Origin: Caldimonas caldifontis
GTDB lineage: Bacteria; Pseudomonadota; Gammaproteobacteria; Burkholderiales; Burkholderiaceae_C
Direction: 5' to 3'
DNA length: 64,000 nucleotides
NCBI RefSeq assembly: GCF_002930615.1
Contig: NZ_PSNX01000012.1
Location: forward strand, 1-64,000
Shown: positions 7,403 through 16,899 of the stretch, in pieces
Layout of the letters: every line of letters begins with the position of its first letter
How positions within the stretch are numbered: position 1 is the first letter of the stretch
Notes under the pieces: generated by a model
Database searches by the model: none
Seen by the model: the letters and a program-made list of their open reading frames with translations, nothing else
Told to the model about the DNA's origin: nothing
Made by a program: the position numbers and the translations under genes

Positions 7403-7867
7403 TCAGAGAAAACGATCCAGCAGGCGGCGGCTGGAGCGATCCAGCGCCGCCGGATCGCGGATGAGGAAGCTCACCCCGGCGCGGTCGGCGATCAGGAGGC
7501 GGCCGCCGGGCAGGCGCCGGATGTCCTCCTCCCCCTTGAGCACGAGCTGCGTCGGCCCGCGGTCGGTCTCGACCTGCCAGGTGCTGGGCGTGGCGAAGCT
7601 GGAAACCGCCACGAGCCGCATGATCTCGGGCATGAACTCGCGTTGTGCGAGTTCTTCCTCGATCAGTGCGCGCGTGGGCTCCGCCAGAGCCTGCAGCCGG
7701 TCGATCCAGGCGACCTCATGGCCTTCAGGGGCCACCAGCGACAGGCCTTCGTCCGGCGCGGTGATCGGAAACGCACGCACGGGCACGATGCCCACATGCA
7801 CCTGGCCGTGAGCGTCGGTGCAGACGAGCTGGCCGTGCGGGTTGCGGTGGAGCTGGAAGTTGGTCAT
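7403..7867 (-). CDS. DUF1854 protein associated with cyanophycin genes
   Basis: A 154-residue soluble protein matching the DUF1854 family as I recall it: an N-terminal block on presentation of HxNPHGQL, a central VPVRAFPITAPDEGLSLV, a GHEVAWIDRL segment, and a closing RLLIADRAGVSFLIRD followed by a Leu/Arg-rich tail. Its biochemical function is undefined. It is the second gene of a two-gene minus-strand unit behind the ABC transporter (14-base gap), and both are divergent from the cyanophycin synthetases. The pairing suggests it serves the transporter, perhaps as a cytosolic partner; that is inference. Confidence 0.8.
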   Translation of the reverse strand: MTNFQLHRNPHGQLVCTDAHGQVHVGIVPVRAFPITAPDEGLSLVAPEGHEVAWIDRLQALAEPTRALIEEELAQREFMPEIMRLVAVSSFATPSTWQVETDRGPTQLVLKGEEDIRRLPGGRLLIADRAGVSFLIRDPAALDRSSRRLLDRFL

Positions 7868-7881
7868 GGCACGGACTTCCT

Positions 7882-10125
7882 TCAGGCGCTGCGGGCGAGC
7901 TGGTCGTGCCAGGTCTCGGGCGGGCTGCCCTCGCTGTCCACGTTGCGCGCCTGGGCTTCGTACAGGCGCCAGTAGGCGCCGCGGCGTTCCATCAGTTCTT
8001 CGTGCGGGCCCACCTCGACGATCTCGCCGCGGTCCATCACGACCAGGCGGTCCGCCTTGCGCAGGGTGGACAGGCGGTGGGCAATGGCAATCGTCGTGCG
8101 GCCCTGCACCAGGTTGTCCAGGGCCTTCTGGATCTCCTGCTCGGTTTCGGTGTCCACCGCCGAGGTCGCCTCGTCGAGGATGAGCAGGCGCGGGTCGATC
8201 AACAGGGCGCGCGCGATCGAGATGCGCTGGCGCTCGCCGCCCGACAGGCCCTGGCCGCGCTCGCCCACCAGCGAGTCGTAGCCCTGGGGCAGGCGCAGGA
8301 TGAACTCATGGGCGTGGGCGGCGCGGGCGGCAGCCACGATCTCGGCGCGCGTGGCCTCGGGCTTGCCATAGGCGATGTTCTCGGCGATGGTGCCGAAGAA
8401 GAGAAAGGGTTCCTGCAGCACCAGGCCGATGTGGCGGCGCCAGTCGGCCACGGCCACCTGGCGGATGTCGATGCCGTCCACGCGGATGGCGCCCTCGCTC
8501 ACGTCGTGGAAGCGGCAGATCAGGTTCACCAGCGTGCTCTTGCCCGACCCGCTGTGGCCCACGAGGCCAATCATCTCGCCCGGGCGGATGTCCAGGGTCA
8601 GGCCCTGGATCACCCGTCGGTGCCCGTAGCGGAAGCCCACATCCTCGAGCTGGATGCGCCCCTGCACCTGGGTGAGCGGTACGGGCTGCGCCGGCTCGGG
8701 CACGGAGGAGACATGGTCGAGGATGTCGAAGATGCGCTTGGCGCCGGCGGCCGCCTTCTGGGTGACCGAGACGATGCGGCTCATGGAGTCGAGCCGGGTG
8801 TAGAAACGCCCGATGTAGGCCAGGAAGGCAGTGAGCGTGCCCACGGTGATGTCGCCGCGCGAGACCTGCCAGATGCCGAAGGCCCACACCACGAGCAGGC
8901 CGATTTCGGTGAGCAGCGAGACCGTGGGCGTGAACAGCGACCACACGCGGTTGAGCCGGTCGTTCACCACCAGGTTGTGGCGGTTGGCCTCGCGAAATCG
9001 CTTCGCCTCGCGGCCTTCCTGGGCGAAGGCCTTGACCACGCGGATCCCGGGGATGGTGTCGGCCAGCACGTTGGTGACCTCGCCCCAGACCCGGTCGATC
9101 TTCTCGAAGCCGGTGCGCAGCCGGTCGCGCACGACGTGGATCATCCAGGCGATGAAGGGCAGGGGCAGCAGGGTGACCAGCGCCAGCCAGGGGTTGATGG
9201 AAAACAGGATGACCGCCGTCATTGCGATCATCAGCACGTCGGTGGCGAAGTCGAGCAGGTGCAGCGAGAGGAAGACATTGATGCGGTCGGTCTCGCTGCC
9301 GATGCGCGCCATCAGGTCGCCGGTGCGCTTGCCGCCGAAGTACTCCAGCGACAGCTTGAGCAGGTGCTCGTAGGTGGTGGTGCGCAGGTCGGCCCCGATG
9401 CGCTCGCTCACCAGCGCCAGGATGTAAGTGCGTGCCCACCCCAGGCCCCAGGCCGCCAGGGCCGACACCAGCAGGCCGGCCAGCAGCCAGCCCACGAGGC
9501 CGGTGTCGATGGCCTGGCCGTTCTGGTAGGGGATCAGCACCCGGTCCATCAGCGGCATGGTGAGGTAGGGCGGCACCAGGGTGGCAGCGGTCGAGGCCAG
9601 GGTCAAGAGGAAGCCGGCCAGCAGCTGGCCGCGATAGGGGCGGGCGAAACGCCACAGGCGCAGCAGGGTCCAGGTGGAGGGGGGCACCGCCTCGGGGTCG
9701 GCCTCCTCGGTCTCGGCAACCTCGGCCGGCGAGGGAGCAGCCTTGTCCAGGGCCGGCTTTGCTTCCTGTTGCGTCTGGAAACTCTGGACGAAAGCCTGGG
9801 CCTCAGGCTGGCGGCCCAGGGTCAGGTGCCACAGGCCCAGGCGGCCCTGGGCGTCGTGCAGTGCCAGGTGGGCCACGCCGGCGTGGTCGCTCAGGCGCAG
9901 GTCCAGCGTGGGGCCCAGAGACCATGACTGCCAAGGGGTGTTGGCGCCAGCCCAGGCCAGCAGCCGCCGGTTCGTCAGCACCAGGCGCTGGGGGATGAAC
10001 CGAAGTTGGGCATCGAGGTCAACCTCCAGCGTCGCTAGAACGTTTTCGGCAGGAGCCAGCGCCGGGCGCAGGCCATCGAGCCAGGTGGCAGCTGGGCCGG
10101 CACTGAGGGAAACGGAAGGGTTCAT
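7882..10125 (-). CDS. Exporter-type ABC transporter with N-terminal PH-like domain, cyanophycin-associated
   Basis: A 747-residue half-transporter. After an N-terminal region (about 20-120) that reads like a bacterial PH-like domain ([11 protein letters not shown] is its hallmark strand pair) and an acidic linker, a six-helix type-1 exporter domain spans about 150-440. The nucleotide-binding domain has Walker [10 protein letters not shown] near 520, signature LSGGERQR near 627, Walker [10 protein letters not shown] near 643, and the H-loop in AHRLST. The start is the ATG at 10125 (MNPSV), since the longer frame lacks a ribosome site and similarity. It should act as a homodimer. Its substrate is unknown. 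Linkage to cyanophycin synthetases and DUF1854 is the main clue. Confidence 0.85.
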
Positions 10126-10235
10126 GAAGTCCAGGACCCCGACGGACGGGGACGTGCAGGGATTCGGGCGGCGGTGGAGGCCCGGCGGCACGATGCCAGC
10201 CCTCGGGGTAGCTCACGCGCGAGACCCCGCGCAGG

Positions 10236-10287: not shown

Positions 10288-12531
10288 ATGAGTCACAGAA
10301 GCATCGAATTCCTGAAGATTGCGTATCTTCGCGGGCCCAACCTCTGGACCTACCGTCCGGTGGTGGAGGCCTGGGTGGACATTGGCGAACTCGAAGACCA
10401 TCCCTCCAATACCTTGCCCGGCTTCTACGAGCGCCTCTCGGCCTGGCTGCCGGGCCTGATCGAGCACCGCTGCGGGGTGGGCGAACGCGGGGGCTTCCTG
10501 CTGCGCCTGCGCGAAGGGACCTGGCCGGCCCACATCATGGAGCATGTGGCCATCGAGCTGCAGACCCTGGCGGGCATGCCCACCGGCTTCGGCAAGGCCC
10601 GCTCCACCGCCACCCGGGGCGTCTACAAGGTGGTCGTGCGCGCCCGTCAGGAAGACGTCGGCCGCGCCGCGATTGTCGCCGCCCGTGACCTGGTGATGGC
10701 GGCCATCGAGGACCGTCCCTTTGACGTGGCGGCCGCCGTGGCCCACCTGCGCGAGCTGGTCGATCGCCGCTGCCTCGGCCCCAGCACCGCCTGCATCGTC
10801 GACGCCGCGTCCGATCGCAAGATCCCATCCATCCGCCTGACCCAGGGCAACCTCGTGCAGCTGGGCTACGGCCGCGCGCAGCGCCGCATCTGGACGGCCG
10901 AAACCGACCGCACTTCGGCGATCGCCGAGAGCATTGCCAGCGACAAGGAACTCACCCGCCGGTTGCTGGCGGCCGCGGGCGTGTGTGTGCCCGAAGGCCG
11001 TGTGGCGCGGGATCCGGCAGACGCCTGGGAGGCCGCGCAGGAGATCGGCCTGCCAGTGGTGGTGAAACCCTCGGATGCCAACCATGGCCGCGGCATCTCC
11101 ATCGAGCTGCGCCGGCGCGAGGACATCGAGGCCGCCTTCCACGTGGCCGCGCGCGAGGGCAGCGAGGTGCTGGTGGAACGCTACATCCCCGGCGGTGAGC
11201 ACCGCCTGCTGGTGGTGGGCAACCGGGTGGTGGCCGCCTCGCGGGGCGATGCCGCCTGGGTCACGGGCGACGGCCGCTCCACCGTGGCCCAGCTCGTCGA
11301 GACCCAGGTCAACAGTGACCCGCGCCGGGGTGAGGACGAGGCCTTCCCGCTGGACATTGTGCGCCTGCACGAGCCGGCCAATGTGCTTGAACTGGCCCGC
11401 CAGGGCTACACCGCCGAGGCCGTGCCCCCCGCGGGCCAGAGGGTACGCGTGCAGCGCAACGGCAACCTGGCGATCGATGTGACCGAACGCGTGCACCCGG
11501 AGGTGGCCGAGATGGTGGCCCTCGCGGCGCGTGTGGTGGGCCTGGACATCGCTGGCGTGGACGTGGTGGCCGAGGACATCGCCCGCCCCCTGGCCGAGCA
11601 GGGCGGCGCCATCGTGGAAGTGAATGCCGGACCGGGGCTGCTGATGCACCTGAAACCAGCCGAAGGCGAGCCGCGCCCGGTGGGCCAGGCCATCGTCGAT
11701 CACCTCTTCCCCGAGGGCGAGACCGGCCGCGTGCCGGTGGTGGGCGTCACGGGCGCCCAGGGCACCACGCTCACGGCGCGTTTTCTGGCCTGGCTGCTGC
11801 ACCTGGGCGGTCGCCACGTGGGCCTGGCCTGTGGCGAGGGCCTCTTCATCGACCGCCGCCGCGTCGAGGCGGGCGACCGCGCCACCTGGGCTGCCGGCCA
11901 GCGCGTGCTCATGAACCGCATGGTCGATGCGGCGGTGATCGAGAACGGCCCCGAGGCCATCGTGCGCGACGGCCTGGCCTATGACCGCTGCCAGGTGGGC
12001 ATCGTCACCGGCGTGGCCGGCGCCGCCTCGCTGGCGACCTACCATGTCCATGACGACGAGCAGCTCTACACCGTGCTGCGCACCCAGGTGGACGTGGTGC
12101 TGCCCGAAGGCGTGGCCGTGCTGAACGCCGACGACCTGCTCGCCGCGCAGATGGCGTCACTGTGTGACGGCGACGTGATCTTCTATGCCCGCGATGGCCA
12201 GCGCGAAGTGATCGAAACCCACCTGGCAGCCGGCCGCCGGGCAGTGTTTCTGCGCGGCCACCGCGTGCTCATGGCCCACGGCGCCAAGGAGACGGTGCTG
12301 ATCGAGTGGCGCTGCCTGCCGGTCCTCGACGACCACGAACCCGAGGCGGTGCTCGGTGCCGTGATGGCTGCTTCGGCCGCGGCCTGGGGCCTGGGCATGG
12401 AGATCGACCTGATCCGCGCCGGCATCAAGACCTTCGCCACCCAGTCGGCCCCGCCAGCCCCAGCGCCCCTGCCCGTGCTGGCCCATGCCGCCGCACCGGT
12501 CGAGAGCCCGGCCCTGGCCTCTGCCGCCTGA
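10288..12531 (+). CDS. cphA2: Second cyanophycin synthetase (CphA'/CphA2-like) with degraded Mur-ligase half
   Basis: This 747-residue protein has the cyanophycin synthetase order: N-domain with RGPNLWTYRP (about 15-24), ATP-grasp domain (about 210-455, with VVVKPSDANHGRG and IVEVNAGPGLLMHL), then a Mur-ligase-like domain. In the latter the P-loop reads GAQGTT near 485 instead of GTNGKT, the DHLGL motif is replaced, and the final DYGHNPDA motif is absent. The Arg-adding half is therefore probably inactive, whereas the Asp-adding ATP-grasp half looks intact. Cyanobacterial CphA2 shows the same logic and polymerises beta-aspartyl-arginine. R. eutropha also carries cphA' and cphA together. It precedes cphA by 24 bases in one operon. 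Confidence 0.9.
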   Translation: MSHRSIEFLKIAYLRGPNLWTYRPVVEAWVDIGELEDHPSNTLPGFYERLSAWLPGLIEHRCGVGERGGFLLRLREGTWPAHIMEHVAIELQTLAGMPTGFGKARSTATRGVYKVVVRARQEDVGRAAIVAARDLVMAAIEDRPFDVAAAVAHLRELVDRRCLGPSTACIVDAASDRKIPSIRLTQGNLVQLGYGRAQRRIWTAETDRTSAIAESIASDKELTRRLLAAAGVCVPEGRVARDPADAWEAAQEIGLPVVVKPSDANHGRGISIELRRREDIEAAFHVAAREGSEVLVERYIPGGEHRLLVVGNRVVAASRGDAAWVTGDGRSTVAQLVETQVNSDPRRGEDEAFPLDIVRLHEPANVLELARQGYTAEAVPPAGQRVRVQRNGNLAIDVTERVHPEVAEMVALAARVVGLDIAGVDVVAEDIARPLAEQGGAIVEVNAGPGLLMHLKPAEGEPRPVGQAIVDHLFPEGETGRVPVVGVTGAQGTTLTARFLAWLLHLGGRHVGLACGEGLFIDRRRVEAGDRATWAAGQRVLMNRMVDAAVIENGPEAIVRDGLAYDRCQVGIVTGVAGAASLATYHVHDDEQLYTVLRTQVDVVLPEGVAVLNADDLLAAQMASLCDGDVIFYARDGQREVIETHLAAGRRAVFLRGHRVLMAHGAKETVLIEWRCLPVLDDHEPEAVLGAVMAASAAAWGLGMEIDLIRAGIKTFATQSAPPAPAPLPVLAHAAAPVESPALASAA

Positions 12532-12555: not shown

Positions 12556-15126
12556 ATGGACGTTTCCCGCATCCGCGCTTTGCGCGGCCCCAACCTCTGG
12601 ACGCGCCGCACCGCCATCGAGGCGGTCGTGATCCTGCGCGACGACGAACTCGACCTCGAGGCCCGTCCGGGCTTCGAAGCCCGACTGCGCGCCCGCTTTC
12701 CCGAGATCGGTGCACTGCGTTCGACCGGCCACACCGGCGCCGTGTCAATGGCGCATGCCCTGGCGGCCGCCGCGCTGGGCCTGCAGGCCCAGGCCGGCTG
12801 CCCGGTGACCTTCAGCCGCACCACCCCCACCCCCGAGGAGCGTGTGTTCCAGGTGGTGGTGGAGTACAGCGAGGAGCCGGTGGGCCGCCTGGCCTTTGAG
12901 CTGGCCCAGGCGCTGTGCGAGGCGGCGTCGCAGGACATGCCCTTTGACGTGGCCGATGCCCTGGCGCGCCTGCGTGAACTCGACGAGGACGTGCGCCTGG
13001 GCCCCAGCACCGGCAGCATCGTGCAGGCCGCGGTGGCGCGTGGCATCCCCTACCGCCGCCTCACCGAAGGCAGCCTGGTGCAGTTCGGCTGGGGCAGCCG
13101 GCAGCGCCGCATCCAGGCGGCCGAGATGGACTGCACCTCGGCGATTGCCGAGTCGATCGCGCAGGACAAGGAACTCACCAAGGAACTCCTGCTGGCAGCC
13201 GGTGTGCCGGTGCCCCAGGGCCGGCCGGTGACGGACTTCGACGATGCCTGCCGCGCGGCCACCGAGATCGGCTGGCCCGTGGTGGTGAAACCCCGCGACG
13301 GCAACCAGGGCAAGGGCGTGACCGTCAACATCGTCAGCGACGAGCACCTGCGCATCGCCTACGACGCTGCGCGCGCGATCAGCGATGAGGTGCTGGTCGA
13401 GCGTTTCATCCCAGGCTACGACTTTCGCTTGCTGGTGGTGGGTGACCGCCTCGTGGCAGCGGCCCGGCGCGACCCGCCGCATGTGATCGGAGATGGCCTG
13501 CACAGCATCCGCGAACTGGTGGACCAGGCCAACACCGACCCGCGCCGTGGTGACGGCCATGCCACACCGCTCACGCGCATGCGCATCGACGACATCGCTC
13601 TGGCCCGCCTGGCCCTGCAGGGCTTCGGGCCCGACGACATTCCGCCCAGGGGCCGTCGCGTGGTGCTGCGCAACAACGCCAACCTCAGCACCGGCGGCAC
13701 CGCCACTGACGTGACTGACGACGTCCACCCCGAGGTGGCGGCCCGCGCCATCGATGCTGCGCGCATGATCGGCCTGGACATCTGCGGGGTGGACGTGGTG
13801 TGCGAGAGCCTGCAGCAACCCCTGGAAGCGCAGGGTGGGGGCGTGGTGGAAGTGAATGCCGCGCCGGGCCTGCGCATGCACCTGAGCCCCTCCTACGGCA
13901 AGGGCCGACCGGTCGGCGAGGCCATCATCGACACGATGTTCGCGCCTGGCGAGGACGGCCGCATCCCGGTGGTGGCCGTCACCGGCACCAACGGCAAGAC
14001 CACGGTGGTACGTCTTACCGCGCACATCCTCTCGCGCCAAGGCTGGCGTGTGGGCATGACCAACACCGATGGCGTCTACATCCAGGGTCGGCGCATCGAC
14101 ACCGGGGACTGCAGCGGTCCGCGCAGCGCACGCAACGTGCTGGCGCACCCGGACGTGGATGCCGCCGTGTTCGAGACCGCGCGTGGCGGCATCCTGCGCG
14201 AAGGCCTGGGCTTCGACCGCTGCCAGGTGGCGGTCGTCACCAACATCGGTCAGGGCGACCACCTGGGCCTCAACTACATCACCACCGTCGAAGACCTGGC
14301 CGTGCTCAAGCGCGTCATCGTCCAGAACGTTGCGCCCACCGGCATGGCCGTGCTGAACGCGGCCGACCCGATCGTGGTGGCGATGGCCGACAACTGTCCC
14401 GGCCACGTCACCTACTTCGCGGCCGACCGCTTCCATCCCGTGATGGCGGCCCACCGCGTGCAGGGCCACCGCGTCGTGTACGTGGACCGTGGCGACATCG
14501 TGGCCGAGCAGGCCGGAGTCAAGCACCGCTTCGCACTGGCCGAGGTGCCGATCACGCGCAACGGCAGCATCGGCTTCCAGGTCGAGAACGCCATGGCCGC
14601 CGTGGCGGCAGCCTGGGCCGCCGGTGCCAGCTGGGATGCCATCCGCACCGGGCTGCTGACCTTCGAGAACGATGCAGACAACGCGCCCGGTCGCTTCAAC
14701 GTCTTCACGGTGCGCGGGGCCACCGTCATCGCTGACTACGGCCACAACCCCGACGCCATGGGCGCGTTGGTGCGCGCCGTCGAGGCCATGCCGGCCAAGC
14801 ATCGCACGGTGGTCATCAGCGGGGCCGGCGATCGTCGCGATGAAGACATCCGCCATCAGACGCGCATCCTGGGTGCAGCGTTCGACACGGTGGTGCTGTA
14901 TCAGGACCAGTGCCAGCGCGGCCGTGCCGATGGCGAGGTTCTGGCCCTGCTGCGCGAGGGCTTGCAAGGTGCCAGCCGCACCCGCGAGGTGCAGGAGATC
15001 CGCGGCGAGTTCGCGGCCATCGACGCGGCGCTGGCGAACCTGAAGGCAGGTGACCTGTGTCTCATCCTGGTGGACCAGGTGGACGAAGCGCTGGCCCACC
15101 TGAGCCGCCGCCTGGCCGAAGTCTGA
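12556..15126 (+). CDS. cphA: Cyanophycin synthetase
   Basis: An 856-residue enzyme making multi-L-arginyl-poly-L-aspartate, a nitrogen and carbon storage polymer, by alternating ATP-dependent addition of Asp and Arg. It has the N-domain with RGPNLWTRR at residues 10-18, an ATP-grasp domain (about 220-480, VVVKPRDGNQGKG) and a complete Mur-ligase domain. That domain carries P-loop VTGTNGKTT near 475-483, TNIGQGDHLGL near 560, and DYGHNPDAM near 730. The 856 residues are near the usual 870-900. The ATG follows a short 24-base gap after the cphA' gene. No cyanophycinase or isoaspartyl dipeptidase is in the window. Confidence 0.96.
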   Translation: MDVSRIRALRGPNLWTRRTAIEAVVILRDDELDLEARPGFEARLRARFPEIGALRSTGHTGAVSMAHALAAAALGLQAQAGCPVTFSRTTPTPEERVFQVVVEYSEEPVGRLAFELAQALCEAASQDMPFDVADALARLRELDEDVRLGPSTGSIVQAAVARGIPYRRLTEGSLVQFGWGSRQRRIQAAEMDCTSAIAESIAQDKELTKELLLAAGVPVPQGRPVTDFDDACRAATEIGWPVVVKPRDGNQGKGVTVNIVSDEHLRIAYDAARAISDEVLVERFIPGYDFRLLVVGDRLVAAARRDPPHVIGDGLHSIRELVDQANTDPRRGDGHATPLTRMRIDDIALARLALQGFGPDDIPPRGRRVVLRNNANLSTGGTATDVTDDVHPEVAARAIDAARMIGLDICGVDVVCESLQQPLEAQGGGVVEVNAAPGLRMHLSPSYGKGRPVGEAIIDTMFAPGEDGRIPVVAVTGTNGKTTVVRLTAHILSRQGWRVGMTNTDGVYIQGRRIDTGDCSGPRSARNVLAHPDVDAAVFETARGGILREGLGFDRCQVAVVTNIGQGDHLGLNYITTVEDLAVLKRVIVQNVAPTGMAVLNAADPIVVAMADNCPGHVTYFAADRFHPVMAAHRVQGHRVVYVDRGDIVAEQAGVKHRFALAEVPITRNGSIGFQVENAMAAVAAAWAAGASWDAIRTGLLTFENDADNAPGRFNVFTVRGATVIADYGHNPDAMGALVRAVEAMPAKHRTVVISGAGDRRDEDIRHQTRILGAAFDTVVLYQDQCQRGRADGEVLALLREGLQGASRTREVQEIRGEFAAIDAALANLKAGDLCLILVDQVDEALAHLSRRLAEV

Positions 15127-15948: not shown

Positions 15949-16899
15949 TTGTCCCCGCACGCCGACCTGCCCCACGCCCAACCCCTTCGCGCCGCCGAAC
16001 CCAATGAAGGGCCGGCCATCGAGGCGCTGCTGCGCGAGCATGCGCTGCCCACGGCAGGCGTGCACGAGCACCTGGCCGATTTCTTCGTGGCGCATGATGC
16101 TCGGGGGCTGGCGGGCTGCGTCGGCCTGGAATTCCATGGCGAAGGCGTGCTGGTGCGCTCGGTGGTGGCACGCACCGGCCACCAGGGACTGGGCGGCCAG
16201 ATGGTGCGCGCCGCGCTGCGCCAGGCCCGCCAGCGCGGCGCCCAGTGGGCCGTGCTGCGCACCACCACCGCCGAAGGCTTCTTTGCCCAGCAGGGCTTCC
16301 GGCGCATCGGGCTGAGTGCCGTGCCCGTGGCCGTGAAGGCCTCCGTCGAGTTTCGCGGTGCCTGCCCGGACAGCAGCACCACGATGATCCGGGACCTGCG
16401 TGCCGGTGTGAGCCTGCGCACGGCCCGCGAGGACGACATGCCCGCCGTGCTCGACATCTACAACGAAGAAGTGCGCCACAGCACGGCGACCTACCAGTAT
16501 GCCGAGCGCACGCTCGACGAGCAGGTGGCCCAGTGGCTGGCCAAGCGTGCCGACGGGCATCGCTTCTTCGTGGCGGTGACTGACGACGACCAGGTGGTGG
16601 GCTATGCCAACTATGGCCTTTTCCGGCCTCGCGAGGGCTGGCGCTTCACCTGCGAACACTCGGTGTACCTGCACCGCGACTGGCGTGGGCGCGGCCTCGG
16701 CAAGCTCCTGCTGCCGGCCGTGATGGCGCACGCACGCGAGAAGGGCTTCCACAGCTTGGTGGGCGTGGTTGATGCGGCCAATACCGCGTCGGTGAAACTG
16801 CACGAATCCCTGGGCTTCACCGTGGCCGGCGTGATCCGCGAGGGCGGCTACAAGTTCGATCGCTGGCTCGATGTGGCCTTCCTGCAAGCCACGCTCTGA
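15949..16899 (+). CDS. Fused double GNAT acetyltransferase (ArsN2-like + ArsN1/phosphinothricin-type)
   Basis: A 316-residue protein of two GNAT domains. The first (about 10-150) resembles ArsN2: APAIEALLR-like opening, RSVVARTGHQGLGGQMV for acetyl-CoA, and TTTAEGFFAQQGF. The second (about 157-316) resembles phosphinothricin/arsinothricin acetyltransferases: IYNEEVRHSTATY, a WRGRGLGKLLL acetyl-CoA loop near 245, and NTASVKLHESLGF. The start is the TTG at 15949, six bases after AGGAG. ArsN1 detoxifies arsinothricin or phosphinothricin by N-acetylation; the ArsN2 role is less certain. No other ars gene is nearby. The fusion into one chain is unusual in my experience. Confidence 0.8.
   Translation: MSPHADLPHAQPLRAAEPNEGPAIEALLREHALPTAGVHEHLADFFVAHDARGLAGCVGLEFHGEGVLVRSVVARTGHQGLGGQMVRAALRQARQRGAQWAVLRTTTAEGFFAQQGFRRIGLSAVPVAVKASVEFRGACPDSSTTMIRDLRAGVSLRTAREDDMPAVLDIYNEEVRHSTATYQYAERTLDEQVAQWLAKRADGHRFFVAVTDDDQVVGYANYGLFRPREGWRFTCEHSVYLHRDWRGRGLGKLLLPAVMAHAREKGFHSLVGVVDAANTASVKLHESLGFTVAGVIREGGYKFDRWLDVAFLQATL

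Follow-up and report, generated by a model that had tools for sequence, protein, structure and literature searches.

Tandem cyanophycin synthetase homologues in Caldimonas caldifontis with an apparent division of active sites between the two genes

The closest described systems to our locus are the CphA1 cyanophycin synthetases (SuCphA1, structure 7lg5, and TeCphA1, 7wac), the primer-dependent TmCphA1 (7lgn), CphA2 (7ta5 and 8fxh), and the tandem cphA clusters. Residue positions in this paper follow the numbering of TeCphA1, and residue roles are taken from PMC9427784 and PMC9262961. In the N domain, Cys59, His79, Glu82, and His83 form a metallopeptidase-like site that cuts cyanophycin into primers (PMC9262961). 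In the G domain, Arg323 is one of two arginines that touch the polymer's terminal carboxyl and the beta-carboxyl of Asp, and Asn394, which lies in the same loop as the STGG sequence, helps to place the incoming Asp (PMC9427784). Mutating His267 to Ala inactivates the G domain of SuCphA1 (PMC9262961). TmCphA1 lacks the N-domain motif, and it becomes primer-independent if it is given, in trans, either a synthetase whose G and M sites are dead or an N domain alone (PMC9262961). If cutting and building are on a single chain, then the balance between them cannot be set by expression (PMC9262961). CphA2 sequences lack the N-domain motif (PMC9262961), and they also lack the P-loop and the lid of the M domain (PMC9427784).

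Pairs of neighbouring cphA genes are already in print, as "Group 1" clusters (PMC10687191) and as "CphA1" and "CphA2" in Sideroxydans (PMC5178258). These are like our locus in having two adjacent cphA genes and no cyanophycinase, and the cluster in PMC10687191 also has an ABC transporter beside the cphA copies, as here. Herminiimonas likewise has two copies and no cyanophycinase (PMC5670224). Two Tetrasphaera MAGs have two cphA genes in series next to cphB (PMC10687191), so not every tandem pair is without a cyanophycinase. In Accumulibacter, both copies are expressed evenly (PMC10687191). A cyanophycin synthetase gene of Variovorax paradoxus EPS (Varpa_1128) is given a 27.39-fold change in a biofilm transcriptome table (PMC7494200). 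In one survey, Betaproteobacteria were the largest group of CphA1 carriers (903 of 1,614 genomes), and 2.8% of those 903 genomes had a recognisable cyanophycinase (PMC10206079). In the available text of PMC10687191 and PMC5178258, both genes are taken to be cyanophycin synthetases and a division of sites between them is not described. Our literature search, which covered mainly titles and the openings of abstracts and few subscription papers, found no account of such a division.

The window (the whole stretch of DNA that we analysed, 64,000 nucleotides at the start of contig NZ_PSNX01000012.1) contains two such genes, which we call CphA' and CphA, in that order (Table 1). A preliminary description of this DNA had proposed that CphA' is a cyanophycin synthetase with an inactivated Mur-ligase domain, an intact ATP-grasp half, and a complete CphA encoded 24 bases downstream. 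The reading frame of CphA' is real (it opens with ATG), and the spacing to CphA is as described. The nearest named relative that we found is Caldimonas manganoxidans, whose CphA' is 91% identical and whose CphA is 94% identical.

Table 1. Positions, within the window, of the two synthetase genes, their sites, and the divergent neighbours
Feature	Position	Strand	Remarks
DUF1854 protein	7403..7867	-	NCBIfam NF052234, "cyanophycin metabolism-associated DUF1854 family protein"
MsbA-type ABC transporter	7882..10191	-	Divergent; NCBIfam NF052233, "cyanophycin metabolism-associated ABC transporter"
CphA'	10288..12531	+	747 aa; CphA1-like protomer; N-domain site retained, G site changed, M domain dead, M lid missing
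N-domain metallopeptidase-type motif Cx19HxxEH	10471..10545	+	CphA' residues 62-86; in 96/97 relatives
G-domain phosphate loop KPSDANHGRG	11065..11094	+	Holds the His equivalent to TeCphA1 His267
ASRGDAA, G domain	11236..11256	+	Gly at the position of TeCphA1 Arg323; Gly in 97/97 aligned
RNGNLAIDV	11455..11481	+	STGG of the substrate-binding loop deleted; 97/97 aligned
VEVNAGPGLLMH	11614..11649	+	Leu at the position of TeCphA1 Arg458; Leu in 94/97 aligned
VTGAQGTTL, dead M-domain P-loop of CphA'	11746..11772	+	Residues 487-495
CphA	12556..15126	+	856 aa; G domain with the whole Asp-binding set and Gln267; M domain and lid complete; N-domain site no longer present
MAHALAAAAL, N-site remnant in CphA	12748..12777	+	Cys loop deleted

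Both proteins belong to the cyanophycin synthetase subfamily NF010623 (NCBIfam), for which CphA' scores 1064.8 bits against a cut-off of 877 and CphA is also over the cut-off. For the CphA1 equivalog TIGR02068 (cut-off 850), CphA scores 974.6 bits but CphA' only 745.1. The Pfam models locate a difference in the M domain: Mur_ligase_M gives 12.8 bits in CphA' (cut-off 24) versus 78.6 in CphA, and Mur_ligase_C, which scores 61.2 bits in CphA, is absent from CphA'. The letters agree with what had been proposed for this half of the protein. CphA' has VTGAQGTTL where its neighbour has VTGTNGKTT, so the P-loop lysine is lost; the position of DHLGL reads AGAASLATYH; and the C-terminal lid with DYGHNPDA is missing in alignments of both letters and structures. 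P-loop and lid are thus both absent from the CphA' of the window, as in CphA2.

To compare these sites across relatives, we used an alignment of 97 CphA' and 87 CphA, taken from 80 named loci, the regions of further relatives, and the window. It also included 14 single canonical CphA (seven from plasmids and seven from genomes of the class), four third CphA genes from the same genus, and TeCphA1. Among the plasmid matches listed (60 of 152 records), there was no cyanobacterial CphA2. We left incomplete CphA out of the counts (L093, L076, L105, L064, and both pieces of L148), as well as the CphA' of L162, which has a deletion, and L144, which duplicates L037. The alignment does not include the short loci L008-L036. 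Redundancy was partly removed; some near-duplicates remain among the counted rows, for instance from strains of Cupriavidus.

The set of M-site residues (the P-loop lysine, DHLG, and related residues for adding Arg) is complete in none of the 97 CphA' and in all 87 CphA. Residues of the lid are gone in 93 of the 97 CphA'. The loss of the lysine is not a rule of the family, as it is still present in 48 of the 97. The four CphA' that still have lid residues are from Cupriavidus (L062, L063, L065, and L104); in these, GTNGKT and DHL are also still there, but the RGG stretch is gone. In that line, the M domain was altered before any truncation, and the Cupriavidus proteins represent an intermediate state of decay. 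Overall, the expectation that CphA' should not add Arg is well supported by the aligned residues. (In six canonical loci with a single cphA, namely L156, L158, L159, L160, L167, and L168, a stand-alone Mur-ligase-like gene with an open frame of 561-605 aa lies directly after cphA. This is another duplicated piece of a synthetase.)

The claim that the ATP-grasp half is intact does not hold for the G site. The ATP-binding residues and His267 are kept in CphA', but Arg323 is replaced by Gly, STGG is deleted, and Arg458 is replaced by Leu. Across the alignment, the ATP and metal residues of the G site are complete in 96 of 97 CphA' and in 87 of 87 CphA, while the residues on the Asp side (Arg323, Ser396, Gly398, Gly399, and Arg458) are a complete set in 0 of 97 CphA' versus 87 of 87 CphA. 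His267 is kept in 96 of 97 CphA'; in CphA, this position is Gln in 86 of 87. TmCphA1 resembles CphA in having full G and M sets and no N motif, but TmCphA1 has His267.

At the N-domain site, the pattern is the other way around. All four catalytic residues are present in 96 of 97 CphA' (the exception is L110, which is truncated by a contig start), in 13 of 15 canonical synthetases (counting TeCphA1), and in all four third genes, but in none of the 87 CphA, where the column of Cys59 is always a gap. The N motif, whose absence is typical of CphA2, is therefore a standard feature of CphA'. It also follows that the neighbour is not a complete CphA: it has no N-domain primer site, and it has Gln in place of His267. 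The preliminary description had left out the N-domain site and the G-site changes of CphA' and the missing N site of its neighbour; of its observations, the dead Mur-ligase half stands, and the intact ATP-grasp half and the complete neighbour do not.

We considered whether Gln267 marks a dead G domain in CphA, with CphA' performing the backbone step, and dropped this idea. Gln267 alone is no proof of a dead site, because the third CphA of four genomes (G002, G003, G004, and G006) also has Gln267, and these genes lie beside a cyanophycinase and have their other sites intact. Third genes of this kind (L135-L138) are solo, have open frames of 950-1205 aa, and occur besides the pair in genomes of the same genus. 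We also noticed Gln at the position of His267 in an N-acetylglutaminylglutamine synthetase (L003 76-2364, G000:C23).

If we consider only the loci where both genes are complete, then the split is nearly perfect. The N site is in CphA' only at 83 of 84 loci (the remaining one is cut by a contig end), the Asp set is in CphA only at 84 of 84, the M set is in CphA only at 84 of 84, and the ATP set is in both genes at 83 of 84. As neither gene retains all of the sites and the parts that they keep are different, the two proteins probably work as a pair.

We think that CphA' is probably a dedicated primer-maker (an endo-cyanophycinase) and a scaffold partner of a primer-dependent CphA. Both proteins would go back to a CphA1-type synthetase whose gene was duplicated in tandem once, long ago, and whose active sites have been divided between the copies. 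CphA would build the chain, with its G domain adding backbone Asp and its M domain adding the side-chain amino acid. As CphA has lost the N-domain site, it should depend on primers. CphA' would have given up the usual ways of adding Asp and the side chain; its N-domain endo-cyanophycinase would cut nascent chains into primers, and its G and M folds may have been kept for docking with CphA, perhaps in a mixed tetramer, or for holding the chain. The pair then looks like a natural version of the in-trans experiment with TmCphA1. This reading draws on the residue pattern, linkage, co-occurrence, selection, and the predicted fold, from which we infer the activities, the association, and cyanophycin as the product.

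The history of the genes is consistent with a single duplication. In a tree of G domains (83 sequences: 32 CphA' and 32 CphA, chosen by hand, 15 canonical, and 4 third genes), CphA' form one clade (SH-aLRT 99), CphA form another (99), and the two are sisters (90), with the third genes just outside of them. These sister clades are most simply explained by a single old duplication, after which the two copies lost sites reciprocally.

Purifying selection acts on CphA': when the window is compared with C. manganoxidans, dN/dS is 0.081 for CphA' and 0.068 for CphA. Within CphA', it is 0.063 for the N domain, 0.065 for the G domain, and 0.079 for the dead M domain, versus 0.43 for a tail that is predicted with low confidence. 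At wider distances, only the M domain of CphA' drifts (mean identity of 0.476, versus 0.702 for the M domain of CphA; 1000 random pairs from 84 loci). AlphaFold2 predicts CphA' to be a CphA1-like protomer without the lid (mean pLDDT 89.3), and the dead M domain is predicted to be folded (pLDDT of 80-97 per block of ten residues across residues 481-710). The predicted N-G-M core fold resembles that of the CphA1 structures (VIA-align Z of 35.9-47.9, with 47.9 for TeCphA1), while the two solved CphA2 are more distant (Z of 28.1 and 24.8). Foldseek ranks the CphA1 and CphA2 structures in the same order. CphA' thus shares with CphA1 its core fold, its N-site motif, and its ATP residues in the G domain, but unlike CphA1 it has no Arg323, STGG, or Arg458, no M lid, and no working M site, and a second synthetase is encoded next to it.

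That second synthetase is nearly always there. Among the 85 loci whose downstream sequence extends for 2.7 kb or more, CphA adjoins CphA' at 84 (82 are intact, one is frameshifted in L148, and one is cut by a run of Ns in L064), and at all 84 loci where both are complete, CphA' is upstream of CphA on the same strand. The single exception to this linkage is a locus from an Alcaligenaceae MAG (L099 5529-7709), where CphA' has neither CphA nor the ABC gene as a neighbour. The ABC transporter and DUF1854 genes, which are divergent and upstream of CphA' in the window, are present at 76 of the 77 pair loci whose upstream sequence covers 4.5 kb or more. (On the other side of the pair, positions 15949-16899 of the window encode a GNAT fusion whose first half matches ArsN2 over the cut-off and whose second half matches ArsN1 family A below the cut-off.)

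Across 60 relatives, CphA', CphA, and DUF1854 are found in the same 34 genomes, and the other 26 have none of them over the cut-off. The ABC family is over the cut-off in 33 of these 34 genomes and in 0 of the 26 (in G017, the ABC gene is split over two contigs). The match to CphA is in two pieces in G011, G020, and G046, and in G017 and G040, CphA' and CphA are on separate contigs. Among 232 sampled genomes of the class, CphA' and CphA are found in the same five (with CphA' in pieces in G137), seven others have only other CphA genes, and G072 has a partial match to CphA alone. The suggestion that CphA' acts as a partner of CphA is supported by this adjacency, by the all-or-none co-occurrence, and by the reciprocal loss of sites, and from these we infer a physical partnership.

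No cyanophycinase or isoaspartyl peptidase was found beside the pair by tblastn (1e-8) at any of 64 loci where the sequence examined reached 4.5 kb or more upstream of CphA' and 6.5 kb or more on its downstream side, CphA included. A cyanophycinase is adjacent to all four of the third CphA genes. Genome-wide, a cyanophycinase is over the cut-off in 10 of the 60 relatives, 9 of which are among the 34 with the pair, so 25 of the 34 have none over the cut-off; neither does the window's own genome. This scarcity agrees with the published 2.8% (PMC10206079).

One family, f103, shows how far CphA' can change. We searched 36 of its genomes and found the pair in 12. His267 of CphA' is gone in all 12: it is Arg in 10 and Leu in G248, which also lacks Glu450, and in G137 the loop is rewritten and the G domain is short of about 60 residues and several residues of the ATP site. 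All 12 nevertheless have an intact N site, G137 among them. The N site is thus what CphA' was not seen to lose, even where its G domain is ruined. Outside of the f103 genomes, all 96 aligned CphA' have His267 and the ATP residues of the G site. In CphA of f103, position 267 is His in 6 of 12 genomes and Gln in 6 of 12, while it is Gln in all 85 other aligned rows, and the tree of CphA requires at least three changes between His and Gln. These changes are suggestive of CphA compensating for the lost His267 of CphA', although the match is imperfect and comes from a single family. A strict rule by which each pair has exactly one His267 fails: in f103, none of the 12 CphA' retains it, and 6 of the 12 CphA have it.

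Three observations count against a dedicated primer-maker. First, most CphA' keep the ATP residues and His267, which a pure primer-maker would not need, and this leaves room for a CphA2-like activity or an activity on an altered substrate. Second, the two homologues in R. eutropha H16 are reported to have yielded no cyanophycin when overexpressed there or expressed in E. coli (PMC8560796 and PMC11362209, citing Adames 2013), so the product of the pair may not be ordinary cyanophycin. Third, at L099 (one locus, from a MAG), CphA' occurs without CphA or the ABC gene.

A different reading, which we view as possible but doubtful, is that the four genes (ABC, DUF1854, CphA', and CphA) form a system that makes short oligomers of beta-Asp-Arg or a related unit, rather than storing cyanophycin. 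CphA would extend the oligomers, CphA' would trim them with its N-domain endopeptidase, and the exporter-like ABC protein would move them across the membrane. If so, CphA' would take the place of the missing cyanophycinase, and cutting and building, being separate, would be tunable by expression, which is impossible for a single-chain CphA1.

We consider it unlikely that CphA' is the proteobacterial counterpart of CphA2 and joins ready-made beta-Asp-Arg with ATP, with the losses of Arg323, STGG, and Arg458 opening the site that grips Asp. Such a pair has been named CphA1 and CphA2 in print (PMC5178258). The Asp-binding set is lost in all 97 CphA', the M site is dead as in CphA2, and outside of f103, CphA' keeps Arg309 along with the ATP-binding residues and His267. 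However, CphA' has the N motif that CphA2 lacks, its predicted fold is much nearer to CphA1, and both of the solved CphA2 chains show no net shortening where CphA' lacks STGG (judging by aligned lengths only). Most of the pair genomes do not have a cyanophycinase over the cut-off to supply the dipeptide, and CphA' of f103 lacks His267. The preliminary description had offered likeness to cyanobacterial CphA2 or partnership with CphA; the first is weakened, while the second is supported by linkage and evolution.

It is quite improbable that CphA' is without catalytic activity and serves as a scaffold or regulator of CphA, such as an ATP-sensing subunit, whose N site is kept only to bind the chain. 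A dead M domain that is predicted to be folded and is constrained would fit this, as would the ATP residues in 96 of 97 CphA'. But all four residues of the N site, with Glu82 as the general base, are just as conserved, even next to a ruined G domain, and binding alone would not require them. We give still less credence to the idea that the G domain of CphA' adds a residue other than Asp, so that the pair makes a different branched peptide. In place of the Asp set, CphA' has a conserved alternative (Gly323, Leu458, and a shortened loop) and not random letters, and the result with H16 (PMC8560796) could be read this way; but in f103, these same positions have changed further (to Ala, Pro, or Ser) and His267 has been lost, which makes the activity look dispensable there. 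Finally, the dead M domain and the variable remains of its P-loop might suggest a decaying duplicate without a role, but this is already contradicted by selection (the low dN/dS over the gene), by all-or-none retention with CphA, ABC, and DUF1854 in 34 of 60 genomes, and by the conserved N site.

If the primer-maker is a separate, co-inherited paralogue, then it would be a mistake to read either gene as a stand-alone cyanophycin synthetase, and our results suggest that calling both of them "cyanophycin synthetase" hides a division of labour. With two genes, the balance between cutting and building could be set by expression.
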